A stretch of 37,311 nt of DNA from a virus. The notes beneath the pieces are model-generated. The model was not told where the DNA came from. It did no database searches and was given only the letters and a program-made list of their open reading frames with translations. The stretch lies in IMG/VR virus record IMGVR_UViG_3300046534_000660, positions 1 to 37,311 of that record. The stretch is one strand, 5' to 3'. Below are positions 3,143-31,015 of this stretch, piece after piece. How positions within the stretch are numbered: the stretch's first letter is position 1; each line of letters begins with the position of its first letter. Position numbers and translations under genes: made by a program.

Positions 3143-3146
3143 TCCA

Positions 3147-6908: not shown

Positions 6909-7343
6909 ATGAGCCAATTAGAAAAAAATCTTTATAAACGTGTAACTGTAAGTCAGCCTACAAAAATTGCAAGCTCTAATAGAAAATACAGAGGGTTTTC
7001 AACTGTTGCTGATGCTAAAAGCTTTAGCGTTTATGATTTTGAGCTTATTAAGCAAGATTTAATTAATCACTTCCATATAAGACAAACTGAAAAATTAAGC
7101 GATCCTACTTTTGGCACAATTATTTGGGATCTGCTATACGAACCTTTTACAATTGAAGTTCAAGAAGCTATAATTGAAGATGTTACTCGTATTATTAACT
7201 ACGATCCTAGAATAAAAGCAGATGATGTAGTAATTGACACTTATGAGCAAGGTATACAAATTGACTGCACAATAACTGTTCTTCCGTTCGGAGTAACAGA
7301 CCAATTGCGCTTCAAATTTGACAAAGAAAACGGACTTCTTTAA
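6909..7343 (+). CDS. 25: gp25-like baseplate wedge protein (144 aa)
   Basis: This belongs to the gp25/GpW family, a sheath-initiating component that joins gp6 and gp53 in each baseplate wedge core. The length fits the family. Features visible are the FSVYDFELIKQDLINHFHIR segment (about 38-57), the SDPTFGTIIWDLLYEPF segment, and the hallmark YDPRI at 98-102 followed by alternating beta strands to the end. The start is 3 bases after the stop of the spike gene. The order spike, gp25, gp6 is that of T4-like phages and supports the call. Confidence 0.95.
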   Translation: MSQLEKNLYKRVTVSQPTKIASSNRKYRGFSTVADAKSFSVYDFELIKQDLINHFHIRQTEKLSDPTFGTIIWDLLYEPFTIEVQEAIIEDVTRIINYDPRIKADDVVIDTYEQGIQIDCTITVLPFGVTDQLRFKFDKENGLL

Positions 7344-7384: not shown

Positions 7385-7408
7385 TTAGTATAAACAAGGA
7401 TAATGCAT

Positions 7409-10400
7409 ATGTCTTCAAATGATAGACAGTCGAGGCTACTAGTAGCAGAGGACTGGAAAAGAATTTACCAAAGCTTTAGGAACGCAGATTTCCAAAGCTA
7501 CGATTTTGATAACCTAAGACGCACAATGATTAACTATTTGCGTCAAAACTATCCAGAAGACTTTAACGATTACATTGAATCGAGTGAATATCTTGCGCTA
7601 ATTGATATGATTGCTTTCCTTGGGCAAAACTTATCATTCCGTATTGATTTAAACGCTCGTGAAAACTTCCTTGAAACAGCAGAGCGCAGAGAAAGTGTAT
7701 TACGTCTAGCACGTATGCTGTCCTACAATCCACGACGCAATCAAGCAGCTAACGGCTTGCTTAAATTTGACACAATTAAAACAACTGAAAATCTTTTAGA
7801 TAGTAATGGTTTAAACATATCAGGTATTACTGTTAAGTGGAATGATCAAACTAACACAAACTATTTTGAGCAGTTTGTTAAGATTATGAATTCAGCATTA
7901 CCATTGTCTAACTCAATTGGTAATCCTTTAAAAACTTCGTTAATTGCAGATGTGCAAACACAAAAATATCGCTTAAACGCTACAAACACTGGGCAAGCAA
8001 TTTACCCGTTTACTAAACGTATTGAAGGTGTAAGCACACGCTTTGAAATTGTAAGTACAGACATATCAGCAGATAGCATTTTAGAAGAAGCCCCCTTACC
8101 TGGCAATAGTCCTGCATTTTTGTTTAGAGATGACGGCCAAGGTGCAGGCAGTAATAACACAGGTTTCTTTATGCACTTCCGTCAAGGTAAACTTGAAACA
8201 GGAAACTTTGCAGTAAGTAATCCAACGCCAAATCAAGCAGTAGCAATTGATGCTGAAAATATTAACGATAGTGATGTGTGGTTGTTTGCACTAAACAGTG
8301 CAGGCTTTGAAAGTAATGAATGGTCAAAAATTGATGCTGTAGAAGGCAACAATGTTATCTATAATAGTTTGTTTAATAAAACTAGAGATGTATTTGCAGT
8401 AACAACACGAGTTGGCGATAGAATTAATTTGGTATTTAGTGACGGTGTATTTGGTAATTTACCGGCAGGAGACTTTAGATCATTTTACAGAACTAGTAAT
8501 AATTTACGCAGTGTAATTACTCCAAGTGCAATAAACACAGTAAGTATTGATATTCCTTATCAGTCAAGAAACGGCTCACAACAAACTCTTACAATTGGAT
8601 TAAAATTAAATTACACAGTTAGTAACGGCACAGCAACTGAAACTAATACAGAAATTAAACAAAATGCGCCTGCTACATATTACACTCAAAACAGATTAAT
8701 TACTGGTGAAGACTATAACATTGGTCCACTTGCAATTAGTCAAGATATTATTAAAACTAAAAGTTCAAATAGAATATCAAGCGGTATTAGTCGCTTCTTT
8801 GATCTAAAAGATGCTAGTGGAAAATATTCAAACACTAGTTTGTTTGCAGACGATGGAATAATTTATAAAGAAGAATTTACTGAAAAACAATCATTTACGT
8901 TTGCAACACAAACAGATATTGAAGGTATTATATATAACACTATTGAAGGTATATTAGGTAGTGCAACTGGACAAAACTTCTACCTTGGTAAATTTCCAAA
9001 AATTATTGTTAGCGATCTTAACGCAGCTTGGACACAGTCAAGCACTAGTACAAACCAAACATTAGGTTTACTAACAGACATTGATAGCAATGCATATACA
9101 GTAGGTACATTCACTGCAAATAGTTTACGTTTATTAGAAGCAGGAACAATGTTAAAGTTTGTTGCTCCTGCAGGTAAACATTTTATGCCTAATGGAACAC
9201 TAATGACAGACGGCGCAGGCACTGACCACTTAGGAAAAACAGCATACAAATGGTGTAAAGTAATTTCTGTTTCTGGCAACGGAACAGTAATAGACGAGGA
9301 CGGGATTGCTCCAATTGCACTAAATGATGTTATACCAACAGGTGCAATATTGCAGCAAGTTATACCAAACTATTCTAAAGTATTAATTAATGATGTAAAA
9401 GTACAATTAATTGATCAAGTATTTGAGTACAAAGATTTTGCATTAAGATATGATCAATATGATAGACAGTGGAAAATAGTATTAGCTGAAGACATTAACA
9501 CACTTAGCGAATTTGCTACAGGTAAGGCAGGTGATAGCACTAGTGCAGCACTAGATGCAAGCTGGGTATTATACTTTAAAACAGACGGCGAAAAGTACAC
9601 AATTACATATCGTAACTTGAGATATGTAATGGAAAGCTCAGACGAAATTAGATTCTTCTTTGACAGTGCTGATAAGATTTATGATCCATCATCCGGTCAA
9701 ATTGTTAGAGACAAGATTGATATTTTAAACATCAACAGACAGCCCGGGAAATTAATACCATTTACAAGAGATTTTAACTGGACAATTACAGATGCATATA
9801 GAGATGTAGAAGGATATTTAGATAGCCGTAAAATACAAGTTCAATTTATTGACCTTGATGATGACGGAGTAATTGATGATCCTGATATCTTTGAACAAAT
9901 TGTTGGTGAAGAAGATGTATCTATTTTAACAAAAGATAAAATTATATTCCAAAAGAAATATACAACAACCGATGCTGTAGAAGATTTTAAATATTTTGCA
10001 AACACTACTTCTGAAATACTTGTAATAGAAAATGAAGCAGCAATTGCTCCGTATAGCACACGTTTAGAAGGACAAATATTCTATTTGATTAATGAAAAAG
10101 TATTTAGAAAGCTTAATAAGGCGTTGAACAACACTGCAATTAATACAGATTATAAAGCATACTTTGGTCGAGCAGATTTAAAATTCCATTACACACATGT
10201 TGCAGATAGTGGATACAGAATTGACCCAAGTGCAAGCAATATTATTGACACTTATATAATGTCTAAATCATACGACACACAAGTAAAACAATATATTGCA
10301 GGAACAATTTTAACTAAGCCTAAACCTCCAAGTAATGATGAGTTGTTTAGAAGTTACGGCAGCTCAATAAACAAAATTAAAAGTATAAGTGATGAGATAA

Positions 10401-10948
10401 TTTATCACCCTGTAAAATATAAGATATTGTTTGGTAGTAAGGCAAATCCAGATTTACAAGTTAAATTTAAAATTGTTAAAAATGCTAGTATAGTTATTAA
10501 TGACAACGAACTTAAATCAGATATTATTGAAGCTATTAATAAATTCTTTGATATTGAAAATTGGGACTTTGGCGAAACATTTTACTTCCAAGAGCTTAGT
10601 GCCTATATTATAAATGAGCTGTCTCCTAAACTGGTAAGTATACTAATAGTACCGCGCCAAACTACACAATCGTTTGGTAGCCTATTTGAAATAAAAAGTG
10701 AGCCAGATGAAATATTTGCAAGTGCAGCTAAGGTGAGTGATATCGAAACTATAGACCAGATAACAGCAACTAATTTACAAGCAAGCGGTACAGTAATTAA
10801 TGCTGTTTCGACTAGTATAACTTCAGGGATAACGAGCAGTGCATCAATACCAACAAGTACAAGTACAAATACAACAACTACTACTACAAGTAGTTTGTCA
10901 AGTAGCGGCTCGTCAAACAGCAGCTCAGGTGGAGGTTATAGTTACTAA
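7409..10948 (+). CDS. 6: gp6-like baseplate wedge protein, enlarged (1179 aa)
   Basis: gp6 dimers form the ring joining the six wedges of the T4-type baseplate. The N-terminus is characteristic (DWKRIYQSFRNADFQSYDFD; LALIDMIAFLGQNLSFRIDL; AERRESVLRLARMLSYNPRR), as is the TQNRLITGEDYN motif. The C-terminus has the family ending INKFFDIENWDFGETFYFQE, then an IVP strand. The protein is much longer than T4 gp6 (about 660 aa); most of the extra length lies between about residues 480 and 940. A D-x-D-x-D-G-x-I-x-D loop, resembling a calcium site, is at about 815-824, and the last 45 residues are Ser/Thr-rich. AAGGA at 7396-7400 fits the ATG at 7409 (8-base spacing) better than the one at 7403. The stop overlaps the next start as TAATG. 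Confidence 0.93.
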   Translation: MSSNDRQSRLLVAEDWKRIYQSFRNADFQSYDFDNLRRTMINYLRQNYPEDFNDYIESSEYLALIDMIAFLGQNLSFRIDLNARENFLETAERRESVLRLARMLSYNPRRNQAANGLLKFDTIKTTENLLDSNGLNISGITVKWNDQTNTNYFEQFVKIMNSALPLSNSIGNPLKTSLIADVQTQKYRLNATNTGQAIYPFTKRIEGVSTRFEIVSTDISADSILEEAPLPGNSPAFLFRDDGQGAGSNNTGFFMHFRQGKLETGNFAVSNPTPNQAVAIDAENINDSDVWLFALNSAGFESNEWSKIDAVEGNNVIYNSLFNKTRDVFAVTTRVGDRINLVFSDGVFGNLPAGDFRSFYRTSNNLRSVITPSAINTVSIDIPYQSRNGSQQTLTIGLKLNYTVSNGTATETNTEIKQNAPATYYTQNRLITGEDYNIGPLAISQDIIKTKSSNRISSGISRFFDLKDASGKYSNTSLFADDGIIYKEEFTEKQSFTFATQTDIEGIIYNTIEGILGSATGQNFYLGKFPKIIVSDLNAAWTQSSTSTNQTLGLLTDIDSNAYTVGTFTANSLRLLEAGTMLKFVAPAGKHFMPNGTLMTDGAGTDHLGKTAYKWCKVISVSGNGTVIDEDGIAPIALNDVIPTGAILQQVIPNYSKVLINDVKVQLIDQVFEYKDFALRYDQYDRQWKIVLAEDINTLSEFATGKAGDSTSAALDASWVLYFKTDGEKYTITYRNLRYVMESSDEIRFFFDSADKIYDPSSGQIVRDKIDILNINRQPGKLIPFTRDFNWTITDAYRDVEGYLDSRKIQVQFIDLDDDGVIDDPDIFEQIVGEEDVSILTKDKIIFQKKYTTTDAVEDFKYFANTTSEILVIENEAAIAPYSTRLEGQIFYLINEKVFRKLNKALNNTAINTDYKAYFGRADLKFHYTHVADSGYRIDPSASNIIDTYIMSKSYDTQVKQYIAGTILTKPKPPSNDELFRSYGSSINKIKSISDEIIYHPVKYKILFGSKANPDLQVKFKIVKNASIVINDNELKSDIIEAINKFFDIENWDFGETFYFQELSAYIINELSPKLVSILIVPRQTTQSFGSLFEIKSEPDEIFASAAKVSDIETIDQITATNLQASGTVINAVSTSITSGITSSASIPTSTSTNTTTTTTSSLSSSGSSNSSSGGGYSY

Positions 10949-13900
10949 TGGCTAAGAATGATCAAAACGAAAGTGCATTGCCAGTACCGGGTCAAAATAA
11001 TAAAATAACTTCAAGTGACTTTTTACCTAAGTTTTTTAGAACACAAGCAAACAAAAAGTTTTTACAAGGCACACTTGATCAACTTATACAACCTGGTGTT
11101 GCTGAGAAGATAAATGGCTATTATGGTAGAACAACTGCAAAAGCTTATAAAACTTCAGACAACTATATAGATGACGTTACTACTGATAGAACTAATTACC
11201 AATTAGAGCCTGCTACAGTTATCAAAGACAACTATGATAATGTAACTTTTTACAAAGACTATAATGATTATATGGGACAACTTAATGTATTTGGCGCAAA
11301 CACAGATAATCACAGTCGTTTAAACAGCCAAGAAACTTATGCATGGAATCCAAATATTGATTGGGATAAGTTTGTAAACTTTCGTGAGTATTACTGGATG
11401 CCAAATGGCCCTATTAGTATTCCTATAAGAGGACAAAGCAGAGATATTGTTAGTACATATACTGTTACTACAGAAGATCAAGGCGATAATATTGCTTATG
11501 TGTTTAATGACGGACTAACACGTAACCCTAACTTAAAATTATACCGAGGTCAAACATATCGATTTGAAATTGACACACCTGGTCATCCAATGGCTATTGC
11601 TATTAGTAGAACATTTACTCCTGGTACCTCTATCTTAACAGCAGGTACAACAGGATTGCGAGCTAGTGGATTATTTGATGCAACACTTTATGGTAACGAA
11701 TATGATCAAGGTGAGTATATTGTTCTCCCAAGCGGCGGCAGTGTAACATTTGCAGCTGATGATAATGTTTCAACACTGTACCCAGATGGTATCCGTAAGT
11801 TAGGTGAAGAAGGCGAAGAAGTAGCAATTGCATATGTTGAAAAAGGAACAATTGAATTTACTATTCCTTTTAATGCTCCGGGTAGACTGTACTATATTAG
11901 TAAAAACGCAGTTGATACTAGTGGACAAATTAGAATTTTTGACATTGAAGAAAACTCTTTCCTTAATGTCGCTGAAGAAATACTAGGTAAGAAAACTTAC
12001 AAAAGTGCAAATGGTGTAGAATTATCCAACGGAATGAAAATTAAGTTCCAAGGCGATGTATTACCTGTCACGTATGACACTAATGATTGGTATGTAGAAG
12101 GTGTCGGCGATAAAATTAAATTAATTAAAGACCAAGATTTAATTATTCCAGCAGCATACAGTGATACTAAACTTGTAGCATTTGATAGTGACAACTTTGA
12201 TACACTACCATTTGGTGATGCAACAGCGTATGCAACTAACAAAGATTACATTGTTGTTAATAGAGCATCTCCAGATAGAAATGCATGGAGTCGATATAAT
12301 AGATGGCACCATAAAGATGTAATTTTACAAAGTTATAAATTTAATAATCTATCCAGAGATGTAGATGAATCTTCTCGTGCAAAACGTCCTATTATTGAAT
12401 TTGAAGCAGGACTAAAACTAAACAATTTTGGTGCAGTTGCTAAACAAGATGTTGATTTAATAGATACCTTTACTACAGATGCTTTTAGCACAATTGAAGG
12501 ACAACTTGGTTATAATATTGATGGTGTTAATCTTGCTGATAATATGCGTATTTTGTTTGCAGCAGACACTGATACATTAGTAAGCGGAAAAATATATCAA
12601 GTTAAATTTGTTAAAATTGGAAACAATAGACAAATAAGTTTAATTGAAACTACTGACACACTACCGATTGATCTTGAAACAGTGTTAATTACACAAGGTG
12701 TAAAAAATGCAGGTAAGAGTTACCACTACCATGATGCAAAATGGGTAACTGCACAAGAAAAAATAACACGTAACCAAGCACCTTTATTTGAAGTATGTGA
12801 TGTAAATGGTAATAGCTTTAGTGATATTACTTACTATGGATCTACTACGTTTAAAGGTACTAAGTTATTTTCGTATGCAGTAGGCGAAGGCAACGTAGAT
12901 ACTGAATTAGGATTTGCATTAGACTATAAGTCTATTAATAACTCAGGTGACATTGTATTCGATTTTAATTTGTTAAATGATACATTTGAATATCAAACTG
13001 AATCTGAATTGTTTACTCAAAAAACTAATAGTGGTTACTTAAAGAAATACACATCACTTACTAAATTTGCAAATGTAAATGGATTTAGTAGCACTCCAAC
13101 AATTAGTAAGCAATTTGTTATAAGAGAGTATGCAGCAACTACTATACAACCTAATAACTTTGTAATTGACGTTTATAATAAGTCAAGTAGTGTAACTGAT
13201 TTAAAAGTAGTTGTATTTGTAAATAATAAATTGCAATTAATTACTACTGATTATACAATTAATAAAACTGGTGATAATGCAGTTATTGTATTTGTAAAAG
13301 ATCTAGTAGATACTGATGTTGTTAAAATTAAAACAGACAGCAAGACTATTAAAAATTCTAAAGGTTATTATGAGTTTCCATATAACTTAGAACGCAATCC
13401 TCTAAACGATGATGTTAACCAATTTACACTTGGTGAAGTAATTGACCATGTTGATAGCATGCTTGAAGATATTCCAGGTTATACTGGTAGGTATCTTGGA
13501 CCAAGTAACTTACGTGACTTAGGTGATTTAGATCGTTATGGCAAACGTTTTGTCAAACATAGCGGACCAATTAACTTGCCTCTATACCACGTAACTAATA
13601 AAGATTATAATATTGTAAAAGCATTAAAGTTTGCTAAAAGAGAATATTCAAGGTTTAAGAAAGTTTTCTTAGACACTGCTGCTACATTAGGCTACGACGG
13701 TCCAACCAAAGGACACGTTGATCTTCTTCTAAAAACAGTTAATTGTGATAAACTAAAGTCGCAGCCTTTTTACTTCTCAGATATGCTTCCAACAGGTGCA
13801 TCTAATAAAATTGATTATACAGTACTAGATTCTAGAATAACAGAATATCCAATTACTGATAATTTTAACTTAACTACACTAAGTTCAACAAGTGTAATTG

Positions 13901-16900
13901 TGTACTTAAACAATGTACAACTAACACATATTAAAGATTATAATTTTAATATTCCTGGTTACGTTTCAATTAGCGCAGGACAGGTAGAAACCGACACAAT
14001 TAATATTCACGAGTATGAGAATACAGACGGTAGTTTTATTGCTCCTACTCCTAGTAAGCTAGGATTGTTTCCTAAGTATTATCCTGAGCTAACAATCGAC
14101 GATACTGTACTTGCAGCAGAGCCAGAAACAACAGGCCCGTTTAAGCTATATGGCGAAGATAGTGCAACTGGTACTAGAGGTTGGTTCTATCCTATGTATA
14201 CTACTAAGAGTGCAGCAGGCTCGGGAGCATTATCAAAGTCTTACACATTTACAGGAATGAATAAACTATTTTATATTCCAGTTGCTGCCGCAACTTTAGG
14301 CGGTAATGATGATATTGAAGTTACTGAATACCCAATTGGTGTTGCGTTTATTAGAGGTCACGACGGTAGCTATATTAAAGCGTACAAAGACTTTAGAGAT
14401 GAATTACTATTAGAATTAGAAAAGAGAATCTTTAATAATATTAAAGCAGAATACTCAACTGATAGACTAGACATTAATAAATTTATTGGCGGTGAGTTTA
14501 GAATTAATGAATTTACAAAAACTGAAATTGATAATACACTGCTTGGTGATTTTACGCAGTGGTTACAGCAAAACTTAAATAACCAGACGTATACAAACAA
14601 TACGTTTTACGATAGAACTAATAATTGGACATTTAGTTATGCACAAACTACTTCACCAGACGGTAATGTAAACCCGGGCTTCTGGAGAGGTATGTATGTT
14701 AGAGCATTTGATACTGATCGTCCGCATAGTCATCCTTGGGAGATGCTAGGATTAACAACTAAGCCTGCTTGGTGGAATACTGTTTACGGTCCTGCTCCAT
14801 ATACTGGAGATAACTTAGTTTTATGGAAAGACTTAGAAGAAGGCAGAATAGCAGATCCTAAAAATACTAGAATTGATTTAAACTATGTGCGTACTGGATT
14901 AACTAATTTTATTCCAGTTGATAGCTACGGTAAATTACTATCGCCACTAGATAGTAGATATGCTAAAGATTTCCAAATTGGAAATGCCACACAAAACTTT
15001 AAGTTTGGAGATCATGCTCCAATTGAAAATGCATGGCGCAAAAGTTCAGACTATCCGTTTGCTGTACTAACTGCAATGCTATTAAACAAGCCCGCAACAA
15101 CAATGGGCTTAGGGTTTGACGTTTCGAGAATTAAGAAAAACTTAGCAAAGCAGTGGGTAGATATAGATACAAATAAACCTATTGTAATTAAAGATTTAAA
15201 ATTACCTAATACATTTGAATCAACTGCACGGACTATGACATCAGGATTAGTAAATTATATTTACAATCTTGTAGCAAGTGATATTCTTACAGTTTACAAT
15301 GGATACAAAACTGAACTTGCAGGAATTAATAACCAACTTGGTATTAAAATTGCAGGATTTACAAGCAAAGAAAAGTTTAATTTAATACTTGATAGTAGAT
15401 CACCAACGCAGACTTCAGCACAGGATGGTATATTTGTTCCACAAGAAAACTACCAAGTATTCTTAAACACAAGTAGTCCTACTGAACTTGCAATCTTTAG
15501 TGGTATTATTATAGAACGTACTGAATTAGGTTATATTGTAAGAGGTTATAATTTAGAAAAACCTTACTTTGAATATTATCCACCACAAACTGGATCTAGT
15601 TTTTCAACTGTTACAGTTGGCGGCATAGCAGAAAAAGTACAGTCGTGGATTACTAATACAGCTTTCCTAAGCGGTGAAGTATTAGAACATAATAATGTAT
15701 ATTACAGAGTTATTACTTCCTTTACTAGTGGCGTAAATTTTGAGCTTGATGACGTTGTTAAATTACCATCATTACCAATTGACGGCGGTAGAACAGCACA
15801 GTTTAAGAAAGACTTTAATACTAATGAAATTAGTACAGTACAGTACGGAACACGTTTAACTACAGCACAAGATGTTGTTGACTTTATATTAGGATATAGT
15901 ATCCGACAATCAGAAATAGGATTTAGTTTTGATAATGTTATTAACGGATCTAATTCAGTTGAAAACTGGCCGCAGAGTGCTAAAGAGTTTTTATTCTGGA
16001 CAACACAAGGATGGGCTAATAACTCATTAATTGCAGTTAGTCCAGCTGCTAATTTATTAGAATTTAAAAGAGACTATCATATAGTTGATAATATTAAAGA
16101 TGAATTTTACGGTTACAGTATTCTTAAAGCTGACGGATTATTTTTAGATTCAGAGTTTAATAGTTTATTAAGAGACCAAAATAGCTTTGGTATTGAAACA
16201 GTAGGAACAGAAGAAGGACTATATCACGTAGCATTACCATTAGTACAAAAAGAGCATGTAGTATTAATTGATAATAAAACAGACTTTAATGATAATATCT
16301 ACAATCCAAGTACAGGTTATAGACAAGAAAGAATCCGTGTTAATGGTTATAGATCAGATAATTGGAATGGTGGATTAAACATTCCTGGATTTGTATATGA
16401 CGATGCAACATTTACTGATTGGAAACAATGGAAAGATTATAAGATTGGTGATATTGTAAAATATAAGCAGTTTTATTATGTAGCAACATCTAATGCGTCA
16501 GGCGAACAAAACTTTAATGCTTCATCGTGGCATAGATTAAACGAAAAGCCAGTGTCAGAGTTAATAACAAACTTTGATTACAGAATTACGCAGTTTACAG
16601 ATTTTTATGATTTAGATTCTGATAGCTTCGATATTGGGCAACAAAAAATGTCACAGCATTTGATAGGTTATCAAAAGCGTCAATATCTTGCTAATATTAT
16701 TAATGATGATGTAAGTCAGTTTAAATTCTATAGAGGTGCAATAGCAGACAAAGGCACAATGAATGTGTTTACTAAATTATTTGATGCACTTGGCAACACA
16801 ACTGATAACTTAGAGTTCTACGAAGAATGGGCAATACAAGTTGGACGTTTTGGCGCAACTGATGATGTTGAACAAGTTGAGTTTAACTTAAAGCAAGATG

Positions 16901-19900
16901 AAATACAAGAATCACCACAAGCAGTTGAACTTGTAGATACTATTCCTGAAACTAACTTTGATAAGATTTACAGAATTTTGCCAAATAATGTATATGATAA
17001 GCCTGCTGGTTATGCACATGCACCATTTCCAACCAAAACAATAACTAATGAATACATTAGGACTGCTGGTTATGCAAATGAAGATGATGTTGATTTTATT
17101 GTTGGAAACTTTATAGATCTTGCAGACGTTGATACTAATCAAATTAGACTAGGCGACACTATTTGGATAACCGATACTGATAGCAAGTCATGGACAATTC
17201 AACAGTTAGTACGAGCAAATGTAAATGCACTAGATTTAAATGCACTTATTACTGCTGTTTCAGACAATGGATTGAATATTGTTGAAATAACTCTTGATAA
17301 ATGGGTAGATGGTTTATTTGCAGTTGGCAATTATATTGGTATCCGTGGAGCAGAGCAATTTTCAGTTAACGGGTTGTATGAAATTGATAGTATTAATTTA
17401 AACACTGTACGTATAAGAGTTCCTGTAGGTAATGAAATAACAAACTTTGAAGAAGAAAAGTTTGCAATATCTATGTTAAGAACTATAAGAGTTGACACAG
17501 TTGCAGGAGTTAATGCAGCAACAAATCAAGATATTTATAGCAAACAAAAATTATGGATTGACAAATATAACAACGAATGGGCTGTATTAGAAAACACTCC
17601 TGTTTATTTAAATTCGCAAGCAGTTACAAATCCAACAGAATACGATAGTACTGATCAAGGATTTAGTGATAGTGTAGCAGTAACAAAGAATAACAACAAC
17701 GTCTTTGTATCTTCTGCAAATGACGGGGATGGCAAAGTACATGTTTATAGGAGAACTAGAGAACAGTCAGAGTTATTACTAGATCAAGAACTTACTATAG
17801 AAACTGATGATTTATTTACTAGATCAGATAGTGACTTTGGAAAAAGTATTGCAGTATCGCCAGATGGCGAATATCTTATTGTAGGTATTCCGCAAGCAAC
17901 TTCTGTTAAAACACAATTAGCTTATAAAACAGATGCAGCTACTAGTTTAAGCACATTTGATTTCCAACCAGATGCAACATATGTTAAAAGTGACATAGTG
18001 CGTTACAGAGAAAGTCTATGGAAAGCAAATAGAGAAGTGCTTCCGGAAATTGCTAATCAGCCATTTAGTACTTTTGATACGTATGTTAATTTAGCAAGTG
18101 TAGCAGATGCTGATAGTACAACATTAAATCTTTTAGTTGCAGGTGATCCGGGATTAGCAACTAACACAACAAGTCACTTGTTAGTGCGAGCGCCAAAAGA
18201 TATGTATATCGGAACAACAGCCGGCGACACAATTAACTTATTTTGGAACCAGCGTAGTTTTACATTCCCAACATTAGATAACTATATTCCGTTTGAAGGG
18301 CTTATTCCAGAAATTACTGGAGCATTTTTAAGTCAAGATCATACTATTGTTGAAAAAATTGATCATGTAATGTTTGTTGAAACTTTTGTATCATTGCCAA
18401 CAGTAGGCAGTACTGTAACAACTGACACTGGTAGTGCCGAAGTAGCATATGTAGGATCTCGCAGAGACAGTGCAGTTGTTTACCTTAAAAACACAAATGG
18501 TGTCTTTCCTATTACAGGTGAAATGTTTATTAATGAATTAGACTTTGTAGGATTTTATTCAGAAGCAGACACATATGCTACAAGTACAGCAATAGGCGGC
18601 TTCTGGATGATTAATACAGGATTTACTTATTCAAACAACAGTGTGTATTATGAACAAGGTCGAGGCTTAGTGTATGCTGATGTTAAACTACAAGGCTCAG
18701 TAAGAGCTATTAATAACTATTATAATATTCAAAACACAGTTGGCACAATTGGTACATATGTTACTAACAAAAATAATGTAAGCTATATTGAACAATTGTC
18801 ATATCGAGGTGATCCGTCAGGTGCTGATGCACAAGACGGTGTTGAGAGAGATCTTCCAAGTAATAAATTTATAGTTAGAGTAGGAAAATTATTTAGTGAT
18901 TATGTAGCGCAAGGTGAAGAACAGCAATTCCGTTTATACAATCTTGACAACAGAATTATTGATGTTGCAAGTGCAGGATTTACATATGATATTTTAAACA
19001 AATCACAAACTATTGTTGATCTATGGGACGGCTATATTGACTTTACATTAACAGAATTTGACTTTCAAGGATTTGCATTTGAGCCACAAATTGGAGATGT
19101 AATTGAAGATATTCAAATTCCAAAAGATGGTCAGGGCGGTTTAGCACTAACAACTATTAGCACAAGTACTGCTGAAGTTACATTTATAAAACGTAATTTT
19201 AACTCTGTAAGAGTTTACTTAAAAGTACTAACAGGTCCTTGGGTAGAACAATCCAACATAGGACGCTTCCAGCTCCGCAGAAAAGCAAATGTTGGTTTAC
19301 GTGGAGTAGGCGATGCTGATCGTGCAATTGGTACTATAACTAATGTTAATAATAGCATAGTATTGGGAACATCAGAAGTTGGTAAGTTCTTAGTATTTGA
19401 ACATTCTAGTAACTTTGACATTGTTGCTACTCCAAGAATTATTGATGAAGAATATTGGTTCTTTGATGAAACTACTGAGCAAGGTGTTGCCAGATTGTCT
19501 AATCCTCCGTACAGCTTAAACAAAGACTACACTCAAATTTATAATATACCTGCTGTAAAAACAGGAACAACTCCAACATTAGCAAATGAAGGTGCTGTTG
19601 CAATATATCGCAGATTGCCAGATGGTACATATAGAATACAACACACACTTATATCAGAATACAGGGCAGCAAACAGAAACTTTGGCTCTCAAGTTGCAAT
19701 AGTACAAACTAATAATCGTTATACAATGTTAGTTGCTAGTGACAGTATTGTTAGTGCTAACGAAACCGATAGCACAGGTAGAAGAGTACACCCTGGATCA
19801 ATTGAAGTGTTCCGTCATGGTACAACTGCATCTGATAGTTTCCAAGGCGATTATCAAATAAGAGCATACGCACTTGATGATATTGTAGTATTCAAAGATG

Positions 19901-22900
19901 ATTATTATATTTGTCGTAAAGCAACAACAGCTTCGCAAAATGTTATTGTTGATCCAATTTACTGGGACAAAGTTAGCTGGCAGCATGGTAAAGATGCAAA
20001 CTATCGTGGCACATTTGATAATACGTATTCTTATGCAAAAGGAAATATTGTTGTACAAAGCAATGCGTTATGGAAAGCAGCAACTAACATATCAGTAAGT
20101 GCAGCTATACCAAGTGCATCAAACAATTCTTGGACAAGCATTACTACAGATGTTGATTACTTAGGATACTTGCCAAACTTAACTGCAAACGCATTTTATA
20201 ATGAATCAGTATTTGATCCTATTGAAAACATATTAGAGTTCAGTAAGAGTTTTGATATTAGTGACGATGCACAAGTTTTAGTTGTAACAAGTTTACAGCA
20301 GACTAGAACAGACAGTACAACAAACACAAAAATTGCAATTTATCGTGCAGTTGGTGAAAAATTCCAATTGGATCAAACAATCAATGCCCCTGATAATGTT
20401 ACAGGTTGGGCAGATAAAGTTTCATTAAATCCTGCAGGAACACAACTTGCTATAAGTTCAATGTTAAATGATACTGGGAAAGCTAATCAAGGCGTTGTTT
20501 ATGTGTATACACAATCTGCAGGAACATTTAGTTTAACACAAACACTTACTCCTCCAAACAATGAAGAAAGTGAAGGCTTTGGCTTTGGACTATCATACGG
20601 CGCAGATAACTTAGTAGTGTCTAGCTTAAATGGTGATCAAACAATTCCAACAACGTTTGATGTTACATTGTTTGCAGATACTGAAGATACTGCAACTACC
20701 TTTGATTTTGAATTTACAAACTTTAGAAATATTAAACTTGACAAAGGTTCAGTATACGTTTACGAAAATATTAATAGTAACTTAATATATTCAGAGCAAT
20801 TTATATATCCACTAACACAAACTACGTTTGGCGAAAACATTTATACTAACGGTAACCATGTGTATGTAGGACTTCCAGATCAGCTTGCTGGTGAAACAGA
20901 TAGTTTACCGGGCAACAAAGGCCAATTACTTGACTTTAGAAAAAATGCAACTACATTTGGATGGAGTGTAATTAACGAAGGTGTTACACCAGTAGACGTA
21001 GATAACATTAGGGGTATGTTCTTATACAACAAGCGTGAAAACCGTATTGTAAGTTATATCGATTATATTGATCCAGTACAAGGTAAGATTGCTGGACCAG
21101 CTGACCAAGAAATTACATTTAAAACTCCATCAGATCCAGCAGTATATAATACAGGTAACAGTGCAGACAGCAATGTTGATGCTAATAGAGCATGGTGTGA
21201 AACGCATGTTGGCCAAGTATGGTGGAATATTAGTACTGCTAAATTTACACATGCATATCAAGGCTCAACAACGTTCCAAAAAACTAATTGGAATAAACTT
21301 ACTCCGGATGCAAGAATTGACGTATTTGAATGGGTAGAAAGTAATGTTATTCCGAGTATTTGGGATAGTGTTGCTGACACACCTAATGGTACACCGGCTG
21401 GCATTAGCGGAACAAGCTTATTTGGTGACACTAGATATTCAACAAAAATAAATTATAATGAAACCAGTAAAACATTTAGCAACACATATTACTTTTGGGT
21501 AGTTAATAAAGTTACTGTTCCTGTAGTAGAAAACAGAAAATTAAGCATTATTGATATTGCAGCACTTATTGAAAGTCCAAGAACACAAGGTTATCCGTTT
21601 ATAAGCTTACTTTCAAATAGTAAGTTTATACTTAACAACTTTGATTCATTTGTTAACAGCGATGATTTAGTGTTGAATATTAAATATTCAACTGGTGCTA
21701 AGAAAACACAGAACGTACACAGTCAGTACAAACTAATATCAGATGGATTAGATGTAAGTAAGCCTGATCCAGATATTGAACGTAAATGGTTTGATAGTTT
21801 AATTGGGTTTGACAGCAATAATAGAATTGTTCCAGACCCGACTATATCTGTTAAAAATCGTTATGGTGTACAAAATCGTCCAAGACAAAGTATGTTTGTT
21901 AATAGATTTGAAGCACTAAAACAAACCATTGAAAGAATAAATTTAAAGTTAGCTGAAAATCTTGTAGTTGACGAATACGATATTACAAAATTGTCAACTA
22001 AAGATATTGCTCCTAGTTTAATTTCAAAGCAGTATGATTTAAAAATTGATACACTAGCAGATCTTACATATGTAAGTACAAATAAAATTACTCCTGCTGT
22101 GCTAACACCTATTATTACTAACGGCAGAATATCAAGAATTAATATTACTGATGCAGGCAGAGGTTATAAAGTAGCACCTAGTTTTACTATAAACGGCGAA
22201 GGTGCAAATGCTGAATTTTCTACTACTATTAATGCTTTAGGACAAATTGAATCAATTACAATTACTAGTGCAGGTGCCGGGTATGACCAAACTACTACTA
22301 TCACAGTTAGACCGTTTACTGTATTAGTTGTTGCAGACGAAAATGTTCAAAACAAATGGGCATTATACTCATGGAGTGGAACTGCTTGGTATAGAAGAAA
22401 ACTACAAAGTTATAATGTAGACGTTTATTGGGATTATGTTGATTGGTATGCTCCTGGCTACAATCAGTTTTCAAATATTAACGACACAATTAAAGGTTCA
22501 TATCAGTTGCCAAGCTTAGATAACACTATTGGTAACATTGTAAAGATTGAAAACGTTGGATCAGGCGGTTGGTTATTACTACATAAAATTGACGATCAGG
22601 ATACTGAAGATTATACAATTAACTATAATACTATTGGTAGACAGAATGGCACAGTTCAATTTAAAGATACGTTGTACGACTATGGTAAAAACACTGTAGG
22701 CTTTGATAACCGTAGCTTCGACAGTAATTTTTATGATAATAATCCTAGTGTTGAATTGAGAATTATACTTGAAGCTATTAGGGATAATATTTTTGTAGGC
22801 AAGTTAGAAGTTGAATACAATCAGTTGTTTATGGCTGCATTACGATATGTAATGACAGAACAACAGTCAGTGGATTGGATGTTTAAAACTAGTTTTGTAA

Positions 22901-25900
22901 AAGCAAAGCACAATAGAGAAACATTAAACATACAAGACATAACATTTAATAATGATAATTTAGCAAGTTACCAAGAGTTTGTTGAAGAATTTAAACCTTA
23001 TTCAACAAAAATAAGAGAATTTGTTAGTGAATACAATGCAATTGATCCTACAAATAGTAGTATTAGTGACTTTGATTTATCTCCAGCATATAATACTCTT
23101 ACTAACACAATTGACCCAAGTACTGCAACTATTGTTGATGGCGTAATTAACACTGAAAACTTAGATACTGCAAAATATCCTAGAAAAAATTGGAAAGATA
23201 ACTTAGGTTTTCAAATTACTGAAGTTAAACTAGGTAGTGGCGGCACTGGATTTACATTTGAACCTACTGTTAAATTAATAGGTGGCGGCGGCACTGGCGC
23301 AACAGCAAAAGCATACTTAGGATATGGTAAAATTACTAAGATTAAAGTTACTAATCCAGGAACTGGGTACACTAGTTCTCCAACAGTTGTTATATCAGGC
23401 TCACAATTAGAGACTGGAACTGTAGCAACTGCTACTGCGGTATTAGGCAATGGAGTTGTAAGAAGTCCAAGCGTTAAAATTAAGTTCGACAGAAACAGCG
23501 GCAAGTTTACATTTAGCACATTAGCTAAGTCTGAAACATTTGCAGGAACAGGGTTCGAAACAAGATTCTTCCTAGCATGGCCGATGGACCGGGCTATGAA
23601 AAAAGTTAGCGTATATGTAGATAGTGTATTACAGTTACGTAGCAAGTATACTTTTACTAACATTGTAAATTTTGATAAAACATATACTAGGGAGCAAGGA
23701 AAAGTTATATTTGCAACTCCTCCTAAAGTAAATGCAGTTATAAGAGTAGACTATAATATTCCATTAAGTATGTTAGGAGCAGAAGATAGAGTTAATCTTG
23801 CATACAATCCAATTGCAGGAATGTACGGTAAAGACTTAGCACAGCTAATGACAGGTATTGATTACGGTGGAGTTGAAATACGTAGCTTTGATTTTGCAGG
23901 TCCTGCAGGATTTGACACAGACGGCTGGTATACAGATGCATGGGACGAATTTGATAGCACATTTGAAGATGAAATCTTTACATTAGATGGATCAACAATA
24001 GCACTTCCATTATTAACTCCATTAGAGAATGGTGTTGTATATAATGTTTATTATAAGGACACTGGAGTTAATGCAAATCCAGTAAGAATTGACGCAGGCG
24101 ACTATATAGCAGGCACTCCAGGAAGCTCTGCAACAAATGCTAATGCAACTATGTTGAGTATTACTGGTGACGGAACAACTAATATTATATATACAGATGA
24201 CTTTAATCTAACAGCAAAAACAATGTCCGATGGTGATACAATCATTATTAGAAAAGCAACTAGCGATGGCGCAGCAACTCCTGATACTAACAGTTACGAT
24301 ACTGCACTTAGTGGCGGAGATCTAGCGTATGCAACTGCTAAGGGTCTTGCAGCAGAAGAAATTATTGTAGACGGTGACGGATTTGTTACTCCTACTACTT
24401 CAAGCGGTCCTGAAGAATTGGTTCCAGGACAAGTACTTGACACATTAGATATTAAAGTATTTACGAGAGATAGTGCAGGCCAAGGTGTTATTAACAGTCA
24501 AAGCTATATTATGGATAGCACATTAACTTATAACCTAGGTGTTACCCCAAATAGTAGTAACGCAGTTATTGTAAAAGTTGCTAATGTTATATTACCACAA
24601 ACTGATTATACAATTAATTGGGCTGCAAACACTGTAACACTTAATACAGCAACAGTAGGAGCAGAGCTTAGTATTGTAGCAGTTGCACAAGGTACACAAA
24701 ATATACTAGACTTTGGAAAGTTAACAGGTGACGGTTCAACAGTTCAATTTGAAACTACTGTTGATTGGGAATCTGGTGCAACTGTATATGCAAGTATTAA
24801 CGGCATACAAAAAACAGTAGTAGCATTTAAGTCTGAAACAACTCCTAAGACAGCTATTAGGTTTGACGAAGTAGTTGCTTTAGATGCAGTAGTTAATTAT
24901 ACTGTGTTTGCAGCTGATGCACAAATTAATTATAGTCAAATTACTAAAGATACGTTTACTGGTGACGCAGCAACAACAGCATTTACTTTAGCAAATGCTC
25001 CGTTATACGCTGCACCGACTGAACATAATGTAATTGTTAAAGTAGATAATACTATTTTAAGTGCAGGATACAATATACAGTATATAATTCCTGAAAATAG
25101 CCAAAGAGAATTTCCATTAGAAATATTCCAAATGCCAGCAGGTAGTTTAGCTGTTGCAGATCTTAGGATATTCTTAAACGGTCTTCCAATTACAACTCCG
25201 CTATTTTGGCGCTTTGAAGCTACAAACAGTGCTATTACACTAACAGACGAAGTAGGAGCACCAGGCGACCTACTAGAAATGTATGTGATTACAGATGGCG
25301 ATTATAGATTAGATGGATCTACAATAACATTAGATACCGCACCAGATGCAGGAGCAGTAATTGAAGTAATTCAGTTTACTAACCACAACTTGCTAGGTCT
25401 TGAGCGTATGACTTATGATGTAGTTAACAGATCTACGCTACTTGAAACACAGGTTGATTATGTTACATACAATAGATTAACTGTTGGCGAAATTACTTTA
25501 CGTAAACCTGCAATTGATGCACAATATGTATGGATAAGTGTAAACGGTGAGCTATTAACACCTAGTGTAGACTATTCTGTAACTGACGACAGGCTAAAAG
25601 TTCAATTAGTAAGAACACCAGCAGCTAATGATATTATAGAAGTTATTCACTTTACTTCTGCAGCAAGCACAGCTAAATTTGCATATAGACAGTTCAAAGA
25701 TATGTTAAATAGGACACATTTTAAGCGTCTTGATACAGCAGCTACTAAACTAGCACAACCATTAAATTATTATGATTTAAGAATTGAATTAGATGATGGC
25801 ACTGAATTAGCAGAACCAAACAAACAGCAAAACTTACCTGGCGTAATTTTTATTAATGGCGAGCGTATTGAGTATTTTGTAAAAGAAGTTAATACCTTAC

Positions 25901-26373
25901 GCCAGTTACGTAGAGGCACATTAGGTACTGGAGTTAAGACAACTTACCCAGTTAGTACTAAAGTTTTTGATCAGAACATAAGTAAAACTGTTCCGTATAA
26001 AGATAAAACTCTAGCGTATAACGCTACAGCAGACGGTGTTACAAGTGTGTTCACAGTTGGGTATACAGTTACATCAATCAACGAGATTGAAGTGTTTGTA
26101 GGCGGTACACGTATGCGTAAGACAGCATTAGATGTGTTTAACCCTGTAACAGCGTTAGATAGCCCAGAGGGTGATACTAGTGTTGTAGCAGACTTTACAT
26201 TTGATGTAGATACTAATGCAATTACATTACTTGCTACACCAATAGAGAATGCAAAAGTATCAGTAATGAAAAAAGTAGGTCAAAGTTGGACTTCAAGTGG
26301 CACAACTTTGGGCAATACAGAAAATGGCATCGCAAGATTCTTACGTGCCGGAACATCTGAGCTACCTGAATAA
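10948..26373 (+). CDS. Giant modular baseplate/virion structural protein in the gp7 position (5141 aa)
   Basis: One uninterrupted frame starts at a TAATG overlap with gp6. The N-terminal 150 residues (FLPKFFRTQANKKFLQGTLD; DWDKFVNFREYYWMPNGP) belong to a family of very large virion proteins of marine T4-like phages. A segment near 1927-1950 (FYRGAIADKGTMNVFTKLFD) resembles the KG-containing stretch late in T4 gp7. Other parts are: about 170-333, cupredoxin-like without copper ligands; about 1822-1864, 2337-2367 and 2967-3066, small CBM5/12-like modules; about 2237-3300, seven FG-GAP-like propeller blades with long insertions; 3725-3788 and 4088-4172, G-x-G-Y beta repeats; about 4190-5130, at least seven fibre-like repeats. 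The end has INGERIEYF and LRQLRRGTLGTG motifs common in this family. I infer a wedge component with outward, receptor-facing domains. T4 gp7 is near 1030 aa. Confidence 0.82.
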   Translation: MAKNDQNESALPVPGQNNKITSSDFLPKFFRTQANKKFLQGTLDQLIQPGVAEKINGYYGRTTAKAYKTSDNYIDDVTTDRTNYQLEPATVIKDNYDNVTFYKDYNDYMGQLNVFGANTDNHSRLNSQETYAWNPNIDWDKFVNFREYYWMPNGPISIPIRGQSRDIVSTYTVTTEDQGDNIAYVFNDGLTRNPNLKLYRGQTYRFEIDTPGHPMAIAISRTFTPGTSILTAGTTGLRASGLFDATLYGNEYDQGEYIVLPSGGSVTFAADDNVSTLYPDGIRKLGEEGEEVAIAYVEKGTIEFTIPFNAPGRLYYISKNAVDTSGQIRIFDIEENSFLNVAEEILGKKTYKSANGVELSNGMKIKFQGDVLPVTYDTNDWYVEGVGDKIKLIKDQDLIIPAAYSDTKLVAFDSDNFDTLPFGDATAYATNKDYIVVNRASPDRNAWSRYNRWHHKDVILQSYKFNNLSRDVDESSRAKRPIIEFEAGLKLNNFGAVAKQDVDLIDTFTTDAFSTIEGQLGYNIDGVNLADNMRILFAADTDTLVSGKIYQVKFVKIGNNRQISLIETTDTLPIDLETVLITQGVKNAGKSYHYHDAKWVTAQEKITRNQAPLFEVCDVNGNSFSDITYYGSTTFKGTKLFSYAVGEGNVDTELGFALDYKSINNSGDIVFDFNLLNDTFEYQTESELFTQKTNSGYLKKYTSLTKFANVNGFSSTPTISKQFVIREYAATTIQPNNFVIDVYNKSSSVTDLKVVVFVNNKLQLITTDYTINKTGDNAVIVFVKDLVDTDVVKIKTDSKTIKNSKGYYEFPYNLERNPLNDDVNQFTLGEVIDHVDSMLEDIPGYTGRYLGPSNLRDLGDLDRYGKRFVKHSGPINLPLYHVTNKDYNIVKALKFAKREYSRFKKVFLDTAATLGYDGPTKGHVDLLLKTVNCDKLKSQPFYFSDMLPTGASNKIDYTVLDSRITEYPITDNFNLTTLSSTSVIVYLNNVQLTHIKDYNFNIPGYVSISAGQVETDTINIHEYENTDGSFIAPTPSKLGLFPKYYPELTIDDTVLAAEPETTGPFKLYGEDSATGTRGWFYPMYTTKSAAGSGALSKSYTFTGMNKLFYIPVAAATLGGNDDIEVTEYPIGVAFIRGHDGSYIKAYKDFRDELLLELEKRIFNNIKAEYSTDRLDINKFIGGEFRINEFTKTEIDNTLLGDFTQWLQQNLNNQTYTNNTFYDRTNNWTFSYAQTTSPDGNVNPGFWRGMYVRAFDTDRPHSHPWEMLGLTTKPAWWNTVYGPAPYTGDNLVLWKDLEEGRIADPKNTRIDLNYVRTGLTNFIPVDSYGKLLSPLDSRYAKDFQIGNATQNFKFGDHAPIENAWRKSSDYPFAVLTAMLLNKPATTMGLGFDVSRIKKNLAKQWVDIDTNKPIVIKDLKLPNTFESTARTMTSGLVNYIYNLVASDILTVYNGYKTELAGINNQLGIKIAGFTSKEKFNLILDSRSPTQTSAQDGIFVPQENYQVFLNTSSPTELAIFSGIIIERTELGYIVRGYNLEKPYFEYYPPQTGSSFSTVTVGGIAEKVQSWITNTAFLSGEVLEHNNVYYRVITSFTSGVNFELDDVVKLPSLPIDGGRTAQFKKDFNTNEISTVQYGTRLTTAQDVVDFILGYSIRQSEIGFSFDNVINGSNSVENWPQSAKEFLFWTTQGWANNSLIAVSPAANLLEFKRDYHIVDNIKDEFYGYSILKADGLFLDSEFNSLLRDQNSFGIETVGTEEGLYHVALPLVQKEHVVLIDNKTDFNDNIYNPSTGYRQERIRVNGYRSDNWNGGLNIPGFVYDDATFTDWKQWKDYKIGDIVKYKQFYYVATSNASGEQNFNASSWHRLNEKPVSELITNFDYRITQFTDFYDLDSDSFDIGQQKMSQHLIGYQKRQYLANIINDDVSQFKFYRGAIADKGTMNVFTKLFDALGNTTDNLEFYEEWAIQVGRFGATDDVEQVEFNLKQDEIQESPQAVELVDTIPETNFDKIYRILPNNVYDKPAGYAHAPFPTKTITNEYIRTAGYANEDDVDFIVGNFIDLADVDTNQIRLGDTIWITDTDSKSWTIQQLVRANVNALDLNALITAVSDNGLNIVEITLDKWVDGLFAVGNYIGIRGAEQFSVNGLYEIDSINLNTVRIRVPVGNEITNFEEEKFAISMLRTIRVDTVAGVNAATNQDIYSKQKLWIDKYNNEWAVLENTPVYLNSQAVTNPTEYDSTDQGFSDSVAVTKNNNNVFVSSANDGDGKVHVYRRTREQSELLLDQELTIETDDLFTRSDSDFGKSIAVSPDGEYLIVGIPQATSVKTQLAYKTDAATSLSTFDFQPDATYVKSDIVRYRESLWKANREVLPEIANQPFSTFDTYVNLASVADADSTTLNLLVAGDPGLATNTTSHLLVRAPKDMYIGTTAGDTINLFWNQRSFTFPTLDNYIPFEGLIPEITGAFLSQDHTIVEKIDHVMFVETFVSLPTVGSTVTTDTGSAEVAYVGSRRDSAVVYLKNTNGVFPITGEMFINELDFVGFYSEADTYATSTAIGGFWMINTGFTYSNNSVYYEQGRGLVYADVKLQGSVRAINNYYNIQNTVGTIGTYVTNKNNVSYIEQLSYRGDPSGADAQDGVERDLPSNKFIVRVGKLFSDYVAQGEEQQFRLYNLDNRIIDVASAGFTYDILNKSQTIVDLWDGYIDFTLTEFDFQGFAFEPQIGDVIEDIQIPKDGQGGLALTTISTSTAEVTFIKRNFNSVRVYLKVLTGPWVEQSNIGRFQLRRKANVGLRGVGDADRAIGTITNVNNSIVLGTSEVGKFLVFEHSSNFDIVATPRIIDEEYWFFDETTEQGVARLSNPPYSLNKDYTQIYNIPAVKTGTTPTLANEGAVAIYRRLPDGTYRIQHTLISEYRAANRNFGSQVAIVQTNNRYTMLVASDSIVSANETDSTGRRVHPGSIEVFRHGTTASDSFQGDYQIRAYALDDIVVFKDDYYICRKATTASQNVIVDPIYWDKVSWQHGKDANYRGTFDNTYSYAKGNIVVQSNALWKAATNISVSAAIPSASNNSWTSITTDVDYLGYLPNLTANAFYNESVFDPIENILEFSKSFDISDDAQVLVVTSLQQTRTDSTTNTKIAIYRAVGEKFQLDQTINAPDNVTGWADKVSLNPAGTQLAISSMLNDTGKANQGVVYVYTQSAGTFSLTQTLTPPNNEESEGFGFGLSYGADNLVVSSLNGDQTIPTTFDVTLFADTEDTATTFDFEFTNFRNIKLDKGSVYVYENINSNLIYSEQFIYPLTQTTFGENIYTNGNHVYVGLPDQLAGETDSLPGNKGQLLDFRKNATTFGWSVINEGVTPVDVDNIRGMFLYNKRENRIVSYIDYIDPVQGKIAGPADQEITFKTPSDPAVYNTGNSADSNVDANRAWCETHVGQVWWNISTAKFTHAYQGSTTFQKTNWNKLTPDARIDVFEWVESNVIPSIWDSVADTPNGTPAGISGTSLFGDTRYSTKINYNETSKTFSNTYYFWVVNKVTVPVVENRKLSIIDIAALIESPRTQGYPFISLLSNSKFILNNFDSFVNSDDLVLNIKYSTGAKKTQNVHSQYKLISDGLDVSKPDPDIERKWFDSLIGFDSNNRIVPDPTISVKNRYGVQNRPRQSMFVNRFEALKQTIERINLKLAENLVVDEYDITKLSTKDIAPSLISKQYDLKIDTLADLTYVSTNKITPAVLTPIITNGRISRINITDAGRGYKVAPSFTINGEGANAEFSTTINALGQIESITITSAGAGYDQTTTITVRPFTVLVVADENVQNKWALYSWSGTAWYRRKLQSYNVDVYWDYVDWYAPGYNQFSNINDTIKGSYQLPSLDNTIGNIVKIENVGSGGWLLLHKIDDQDTEDYTINYNTIGRQNGTVQFKDTLYDYGKNTVGFDNRSFDSNFYDNNPSVELRIILEAIRDNIFVGKLEVEYNQLFMAALRYVMTEQQSVDWMFKTSFVKAKHNRETLNIQDITFNNDNLASYQEFVEEFKPYSTKIREFVSEYNAIDPTNSSISDFDLSPAYNTLTNTIDPSTATIVDGVINTENLDTAKYPRKNWKDNLGFQITEVKLGSGGTGFTFEPTVKLIGGGGTGATAKAYLGYGKITKIKVTNPGTGYTSSPTVVISGSQLETGTVATATAVLGNGVVRSPSVKIKFDRNSGKFTFSTLAKSETFAGTGFETRFFLAWPMDRAMKKVSVYVDSVLQLRSKYTFTNIVNFDKTYTREQGKVIFATPPKVNAVIRVDYNIPLSMLGAEDRVNLAYNPIAGMYGKDLAQLMTGIDYGGVEIRSFDFAGPAGFDTDGWYTDAWDEFDSTFEDEIFTLDGSTIALPLLTPLENGVVYNVYYKDTGVNANPVRIDAGDYIAGTPGSSATNANATMLSITGDGTTNIIYTDDFNLTAKTMSDGDTIIIRKATSDGAATPDTNSYDTALSGGDLAYATAKGLAAEEIIVDGDGFVTPTTSSGPEELVPGQVLDTLDIKVFTRDSAGQGVINSQSYIMDSTLTYNLGVTPNSSNAVIVKVANVILPQTDYTINWAANTVTLNTATVGAELSIVAVAQGTQNILDFGKLTGDGSTVQFETTVDWESGATVYASINGIQKTVVAFKSETTPKTAIRFDEVVALDAVVNYTVFAADAQINYSQITKDTFTGDAATTAFTLANAPLYAAPTEHNVIVKVDNTILSAGYNIQYIIPENSQREFPLEIFQMPAGSLAVADLRIFLNGLPITTPLFWRFEATNSAITLTDEVGAPGDLLEMYVITDGDYRLDGSTITLDTAPDAGAVIEVIQFTNHNLLGLERMTYDVVNRSTLLETQVDYVTYNRLTVGEITLRKPAIDAQYVWISVNGELLTPSVDYSVTDDRLKVQLVRTPAANDIIEVIHFTSAASTAKFAYRQFKDMLNRTHFKRLDTAATKLAQPLNYYDLRIELDDGTELAEPNKQQNLPGVIFINGERIEYFVKEVNTLRQLRRGTLGTGVKTTYPVSTKVFDQNISKTVPYKDKTLAYNATADGVTSVFTVGYTVTSINEIEVFVGGTRMRKTALDVFNPVTALDSPEGDTSVVADFTFDVDTNAITLLATPIENAKVSVMKKVGQSWTSSGTTLGNTENGIARFLRAGTSELPE

Positions 26374-26395: not shown

Positions 26396-26998
26396 ATGAG
26401 CGATAACATGCAAGATACAAACGGAGTACTAGTTCAGGGACATATTAAGATATTTGACCCTGAATCACAAAAGGTATACATTGACAAGCGCAATGCAATT
26501 CATTATGAAAATATGAGTCTTGCACTTGCTGAAAGTTTGTCTAATGCAGGCGAAGGATTTATATACGATATGAGCTTTGGAAACGGCGGTACAAGCGTTG
26601 ATCCAACAGGTATTATTACGTATCTAACACCTAATAGCACAGGAACAAACGCAAGTCTATACAATCAGACCTATACTAAGATTGTTGATGATAGAAGCGT
26701 AAACAATACTGATCCTGCAAGAAACAAGCTAGAAACTAGGCATGTTAGCGGAACAAACTATACTGATATTGTAGTAAGCTGTTTACTTGATTACGGCGAG
26801 CCTAACGGACAAGATGCATTTGATACTGCAAGCGCAACTGACAGTCCTTATGTGTTTGACGAATTAGGTCTACGTAGTTATAGTGCTGCTGGTACTGGCA
26901 GACTAATCACACATGTTATTTTCCACCCAGTACAAAAGTCACTTAACAGATTAATCCAAATTGATTACACAGTGCGTGTACAAAGTTTGGCAGGGTAA
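26396..26998 (+). CDS. Conserved virion structural protein, probably baseplate-associated (200 aa)
   Basis: I do not recognise a T4 counterpart with certainty. The sequence (GHIKIFDPESQKVYIDKRNA; FIYDMSFGNGGTSVD; LITHVIFHPVQKSLNRLIQI) has the look of a small all-beta structural protein family in marine T4-like phages, found beside fibre genes. It may be a baseplate-to-fibre adaptor in the place of gp8 or gp9; that is inference from position. AGGA lies 9 bases before the ATG, and a second in-frame ATG occurs four codons on. Ten bases separate it from the first fibre gene. Confidence 0.65.
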   Translation: MSDNMQDTNGVLVQGHIKIFDPESQKVYIDKRNAIHYENMSLALAESLSNAGEGFIYDMSFGNGGTSVDPTGIITYLTPNSTGTNASLYNQTYTKIVDDRSVNNTDPARNKLETRHVSGTNYTDIVVSCLLDYGEPNGQDAFDTASATDSPYVFDELGLRSYSAAGTGRLITHVIFHPVQKSLNRLIQIDYTVRVQSLAG

Positions 26999-29063: not shown

Positions 29064-29064
29064 C

Positions 29065-30972: not shown

Positions 30973-30980
30973 GAAAAACG

Positions 30981-30987
30981 ATAAATA
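30981..30987 (+). promoter_or_regulatory. Late-promoter-like box ATAAATA before the third fibre gene
   Basis: GATAAATA lies in the 43-base gap between two fibre genes; the box ends 28 bases before the ATG at 31016. The core matches T4-type late promoters. An AGGGG at 31001-31005 may be the ribosome site, 10 bases from the ATG. Confidence 0.5.
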
Positions 30988-31015
30988 ATATAATAGCACT
31001 AGGGGTTACATAATA

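Follow-up and report, generated by a model that had tools for sequence, protein, structure and literature searches.

A giant gene in the gp7 position of a viral baseplate cluster is a long member of a known jumbo-phage family

The stretch of 37,311 bases analysed here (the window, from the viral record IMGVR_UViG_3300046534_000660) raises the question of whether one reading frame of 5,141 codons can be a single gene, and which protein it might provide at the place that gene 7 holds in a T4-like baseplate cluster. The frame runs without interruption on the plus strand from 10948 to 26373, takes 41% of the window and is about five times as long as T4 gp7, as had been read from the sequence originally. 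Each of the five alternative frames over the same positions contains 199-801 stops, and the codon-position GC of approximately 0.45/0.38/0.20 is even over the full length. Hence, neither chance nor the fusion of a short gene to junk, which the original prediction had already discounted, accounts for this open reading frame (ORF), and the giant is one real, unbroken gene. Because the source record is a metagenomic contig, an artefact of assembly or sequencing that merged several genes has to be considered, but the same ORF recurs in cultured genomes as well as in dozens of independently assembled contigs, which leaves such an artefact a practically negligible chance; relatives with the same ORF likewise rule out a chance frame.

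Two scans of IMG/VR retrieved 80 loci with the N-terminal third of the giant protein and 79 loci with its middle part as query. Among the latter, 46 copies are bounded by start and stop within the fetched DNA, whereby the copy L146 was counted via its 4,585-aa downstream frame. Stops or frameshifts in related phages, named beforehand as the finding that would speak against a single gene, were searched for in these complete copies, and the single frame proved to be the rule: the homologue is intact in 44 of the 46, with 4,398-5,265 aa and 35-99% identity. Of the others, L146 has one in-frame TAG close to the N-terminus (L146:5961-6000), and L160 has an N-terminus that is shortened in its contig, while the near-identical L161 and L162 are intact.

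The giant gene lies directly behind the gp25-like and gp6-like wedge genes (starting at 6909 and 7403; Table 1), which bears out its assignment to the gp7 slot within a baseplate cluster of myovirus type. Its start codon overlaps the stop codon of the gp6-like gene (TAATG). The block consisting of gp25, gp6, the giant, the 200-aa gene and the fibre genes is retained in most related contigs. Some features of the neighbours deserve mention. The C-terminal domain of the gp5-like hub protein (4416-6905) is VgrG3-like (PF21277), of the type known from type VI secretion spike effectors. The 200-aa gene (26396-26998) belongs to the best-conserved genes in the baseplate cluster; it is present at 68 of 86 loci, with 71-100% identity in the sampled viral contigs and 35-54% in most cultured jumbo phages, and in 121Q and RaK2 it is found about 7 kb further on, adjoining a fibre-like gene. 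The three consecutive fibre/collar-type proteins (27009-32497) have an N-terminal domain in common (phrog_14394/15511), which suggests that they may use a common baseplate anchor with differing distal parts. The terminal, cut-off ORF at 36559-37311 matches CBM_5_12 weakly, short of the cut-off (E 8e-4), and in this resembles modules in the giant.

Table 1. Genes of the baseplate cluster and segments of the giant protein, with positions in the window.
Feature	Position	Strand	Size or residues	Basis
gp5/VgrG-like baseplate hub and tail lysozyme gene	4416..6905	+	829 aa	phrog_13211 E 4e-49; Pfam VgrG3-like C-terminal domain, phage base V OB domain
gp25-like baseplate wedge gene	6909..7343	+	144 aa	phrog_261/phrog_43; Pfam GPW_gp25 E 1.4e-7
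gp6-like baseplate wedge gene	7403..10948	+	1181 aa	phrog_10646 E 3e-295; T4-gp6 family phrog_219 E 7.5e-24
Giant gp7-position protein, predicted baseplate/virion structural protein	10948..26373	+	5,141 aa; 573 kDa and pI 4.7, computed from sequence	One open frame, phrog_10938, intact relatives
N-terminal domain, family-specific	10948..11547	+	residues 1-200	Alignment; identity 93% (near relatives) and 30% (cultured jumbo phages)
Cupredoxin-like beta domain (tentative)	11440..11937	+	residues ~165-330	AF2 model 1-1135 vs rusticyanin; 94% gapped in cultured relatives
Second conserved core	14488..17037	+	residues 1181-2030	27% identity to cultured relatives, few gaps
CBM_5_12 module	15646..15738	+	residues 1567-1597	Pfam PF02839 E 2e-7, above cut-off
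KGT motif segment, candidate gp7-core remnant	16726..16797	+	residues 1927-1950	hhalign, family conservation
Variable, expandable insert with FG-GAP-type and CBM-like repeats	17038..20937	+	residues 2031-3330	64% gapped in cultured relatives
Third conserved core, helical pieces and GGxGY repeats	20938..23127	+	residues 3331-4060	82% identity in near relatives, 26% in cultured relatives
C-terminal beta-repeat/fibre-like region	23128..26370	+	residues 4061-5141	GGxGY repeats matching phrog_701, 460, 438
Conserved downstream gene	26396..26998	+	200 aa	phrog_11259 E 8e-71
Three collar/tail-fibre type genes	27009-29063, 29065-30972, 31016-32497	+		phrog_14394/15511 on each N-terminus; first gene also with Pfam Collar, E 6.5e-12

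The profile search of the giant in slices against phage families, which had been proposed as a check, identified phrog_10938 on the first three successive slices (E 1.8e-131, 1.2e-91 and 2e-68). According to these matches the giant belongs to PHROG 10938, an already sequenced jumbo-phage family, as one of its longer members. Cultured counterparts are found at the same locus in Phosso (294; 4,555 aa), Atu_ph07 (gp180; 4,449 aa), PA5oct (gp355; 3,857 aa, with a record note of ESI-MS/MS), Vibrio phage 2.275.O (424; 3,771 aa), RaK2 (ORF070w; 3,326 aa) and 121Q (582; 3,323 aa). CBB_236 (3,340 aa) adjoins the gp6 gene CBB_237, and in SCTP-2 a giant of 3,807 aa (140) is situated within the same gene cluster. 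The order gp25-gp6-giant is kept in PA5oct, Atu_ph07, Phosso, 121Q, RaK2, CBB and Vibrio 2.275.O. With the KGT segment alone as query at least 597 encoding stretches were found in IMG/VR, hence the family is common there, yet it is labelled merely as 'virion structural protein'.

Close homologues from PA5oct and CBB occur in virions according to record annotation and literature. For CBB_236, 21 unique virion peptides with 7.7% coverage have been reported (PMC5259590), and gp58 of AP-J-162, a 'structural protein' of 4,455 aa, is encoded behind the 1,198-aa wedge protein of that phage (PMC11242549). Such chains might be made as one ORF and then processed proteolytically to yield several virion proteins, and a Clp-type ATPase gene adjoins the giant in RaK2, 121Q and CBB. 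However, the frame is conserved end to end across the relatives and no data on cleavage were found; we regard processing of this kind as improbable.

Compared with the cultured relatives, conservation is concentrated in residues 1-200, 331-960, 1181-2030 and 3331-4060. The original prediction had placed family motifs at both ends of the protein. This holds for the N-terminal 200 residues, which are family-specific and conserved, whereas the significant PHROG matches of the C-terminal part are generic GGxGY repeats, which are common to many phage structural proteins; in the giant, GGxGY repeats lie at residues 3725-3800 and around 4138. The roles attached to two of the C-terminal matches, 'baseplate wedge' for phrog_438 and 'head closure' for phrog_460, were rejected as repeat cross-matches. 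Near the C-terminus a weak Phage_T7_tail match was also obtained (E 0.0065). Besides the CBM_5_12 module listed in Table 1, a weaker copy is present near residue 3029 and a motif-only copy near 1831, and Pfam detected an FG-GAP_2 repeat (residues 3195-3230, E 6e-5). With the AF2 model covering residues 1-1135 (pLDDT 61), Foldseek matched rusticyanin with prob 1.0 but E 3e-3, which tentatively points to a cupredoxin-like domain as a lineage-specific insertion in the N-terminal part. No cysteine was seen in the expected ligand region; a copper site is therefore improbable and the domain probably represents the fold without it. The model of residues 3345-4260 (mean pLDDT 71, pTM 0.39) gave no significant PDB match in Foldseek.

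Is the giant also a homologue of T4 gp7? The original reading stands as far as the gp7 position and the wedge cluster are concerned, but sequence homology is no more than a possibility. The domains PF21427, PF21428 and phrog_964, which are found in T4 gp7, were sought in all slices of the giant with no match. Local hhalign of family slices, including the N-terminal and third cores, against T4 gp7 was empty as well, and direct homology of these two cores to T4 gp7 was rejected on this result. HMMER searches of the giant profile against T4-like genomes and the reciprocal searches gave no match in either direction. PDB sequence searches with single slices of the giant returned nothing, profile A1 returned one non-significant match (E 0.32), and the match of profile A2 was confined to the tailspike repeat of Dpo31 and was discarded. 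Structure prediction in pieces, suggested earlier as a check, provided no fold link to gp7: Foldseek of the two AF2 models (residues 1-1135 and 3345-4260), which are of low to moderate confidence, found no gp7 fold. A separate gp7, gpI or TssG-like gene was not found in the complete jumbo relatives with PF09684 and PF23786, which miss T4 gp7 too, nor with the A3 profile, run without a positive control. This absence favours the giant as the gp7 counterpart, but with such poor sensitivity it is weak evidence.

One segment nevertheless calls for a closer look. Slice 1801-2100 scored best among 50 slices of the giant against the gp7-core profile (35.4; mean 15.7, SD 5.2), above the maxima of the reversed (19.3) and of 100 shuffled controls (20.8). 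Deeper alignments narrowed the match to FYxGxIxxKGT at residues 1927-1950, opposite DFYSTKGIEASYKFLFKVLYNE of T4 gp7, and the F, the G and the KG of this KGT segment are invariant across the giant family. The hhalign P values of 0.0007-0.006 are marginal, though above shuffled controls, with a probability of just 6-27%; with the deeper profile the same segment recurred at P 0.001-0.003, exceeding 200 shuffles. Hence, the giant could be a true homologue with a gpI/gp7-type wedge core at residues ~1860-1960, possibly with a helix near the N-terminus, which was enlarged by insertions; the gp7s of cyanophages demonstrate that a gp7 core is able to carry thousands of extra residues. Against this stand the low hhalign probability, an unrelated slice (2401-2590) with an almost equal score, the missing reciprocal HMMER match in T4-like genomes and the split-core test, in which joining the N-terminal slice to the KGT slice brought only a small gain. 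We consider true homology a serious possibility, albeit one that we would not back over its opposite. A bolder version, in which an N-terminal LPxF helix and the KGT segment would form two halves of a split, inflated gp7-type core ~1,850 residues apart, with the sugar-binding and propeller modules as a built-in host-contact layer, appears very unlikely. We therefore describe the giant as a positional counterpart of T4 gp7, for which functional equivalence is likely on the basis of position.

It had also been proposed that the giant combines wedge and host-contact functions, the latter being assigned to gp10-gp12 in T4. Carbohydrate-binding (CBM5/12), FG-GAP and fibre-like modules are indeed present, and the insert is missing or different in distant relatives. 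However, CBM-like modules also occur in tail proteins that are not receptor-binding, and among near relatives the insert evolves just slightly faster (76% vs 82% identity), with no hypervariable host-range signature seen in the giant. Since separate collar/fibre-type genes, three in number, follow downstream (27009-32497), the fusion of both roles is unproven; it is possible, but we rate a combined wedge and receptor-binding protein as unlikely and do not favour it over a purely structural role.

Collectively, we consider it probable that the giant is a jumbo-phage baseplate wedge protein with its cores on the gp6-gp25 wedge and with beta-rich arms. The neighbouring genes, and not imaging, are the basis for placing it in the baseplate. 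Translation would give a single chain and would be coupled to that of gp6. The three conserved cores (~1-200 together with 331-960; 1181-2030; 3331-4060) are most likely docked on the gp6-gp25 wedge, while the beta-rich modules of low conservation (cupredoxin-like, CBM5/12, FG-GAP, GGxGY and fibre-like) would make up arms or the outer layer of a larger baseplate; six giant chains per virion are probable. The PHROGs category of family 10938, 'head and packaging', runs counter to the wedge reading, and so does the fact that none of the tested pieces could be linked to T4 gp7 by sequence or fold.

The closest known systems are the jumbo myophages of PHROG 10938, with which the window shares the family, the place behind a gp6-like gene and the single giant ORF. 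Over the aligned cores the proteins are 22-30% identical. They differ in length (3323-4555 aa in the cultured jumbo phages vs 5141 aa), and the additional residues lie in the larger insert (~2031-3330), the cupredoxin-like domain and an extended repeat region at the C-terminus. T4 gp7, the wedge initiator of 1032 aa, corresponds in its position after gp6 and in its presumed wedge role, but has PF21427/PF21428 and phrog_964, which the giant lacks, as it lacks any significant sequence or profile match to it.

Giants in the same slot are also known from T4-like marine cyanophages, in which they are annotated as gp7 or wedge initiator: S-SCSM1 (4,120 aa), S-B05 (4,024 aa), ACG-2014f (4,225 aa), P-HM2 gp7 (4,454 aa) and S-CAM9 (3,884 aa). 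They resemble the giant in being encoded by a single gene at the gp25-gp6-gp7 slot and in their GGxGY repeats. However, a T4 gp7 core can be recognised close to their N-terminus (local hhalign of cyanophage gp7 against T4 gp7, used as a positive control, gave P 1.9e-8), whereas the protein in the window has no clear one and shares no other homology with them; phrog_2885, the cyanophage giant gp7, did not match in slices of the giant and solely the GGxGY repeats are in common. According to a paper on pelagimyophages (PMC7029224), cyano- and pelagimyophages lack gp7 and have VrlC in its place; contrary to this, the cyanophage giants in our set (L169 and L174-L177, 3.9-4.5 kaa) do carry a T4 gp7-like core. 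Given the giants of 3.3-5.3 kaa in jumbo phages and of 3.9-4.5 kaa in cyanophages, occupation of the gp7 slot by a giant gene is a known arrangement, of which the gene described here is a long jumbo-family representative with a size not unusual for this slot. The giants found there belong to two or more sequence families that appear unrelated, among them PHROG 10938 of the jumbo phages and the cyanophage gp7, and if the gp6 wedge carried the members of both, the slot would be a repeated site of baseplate growth.
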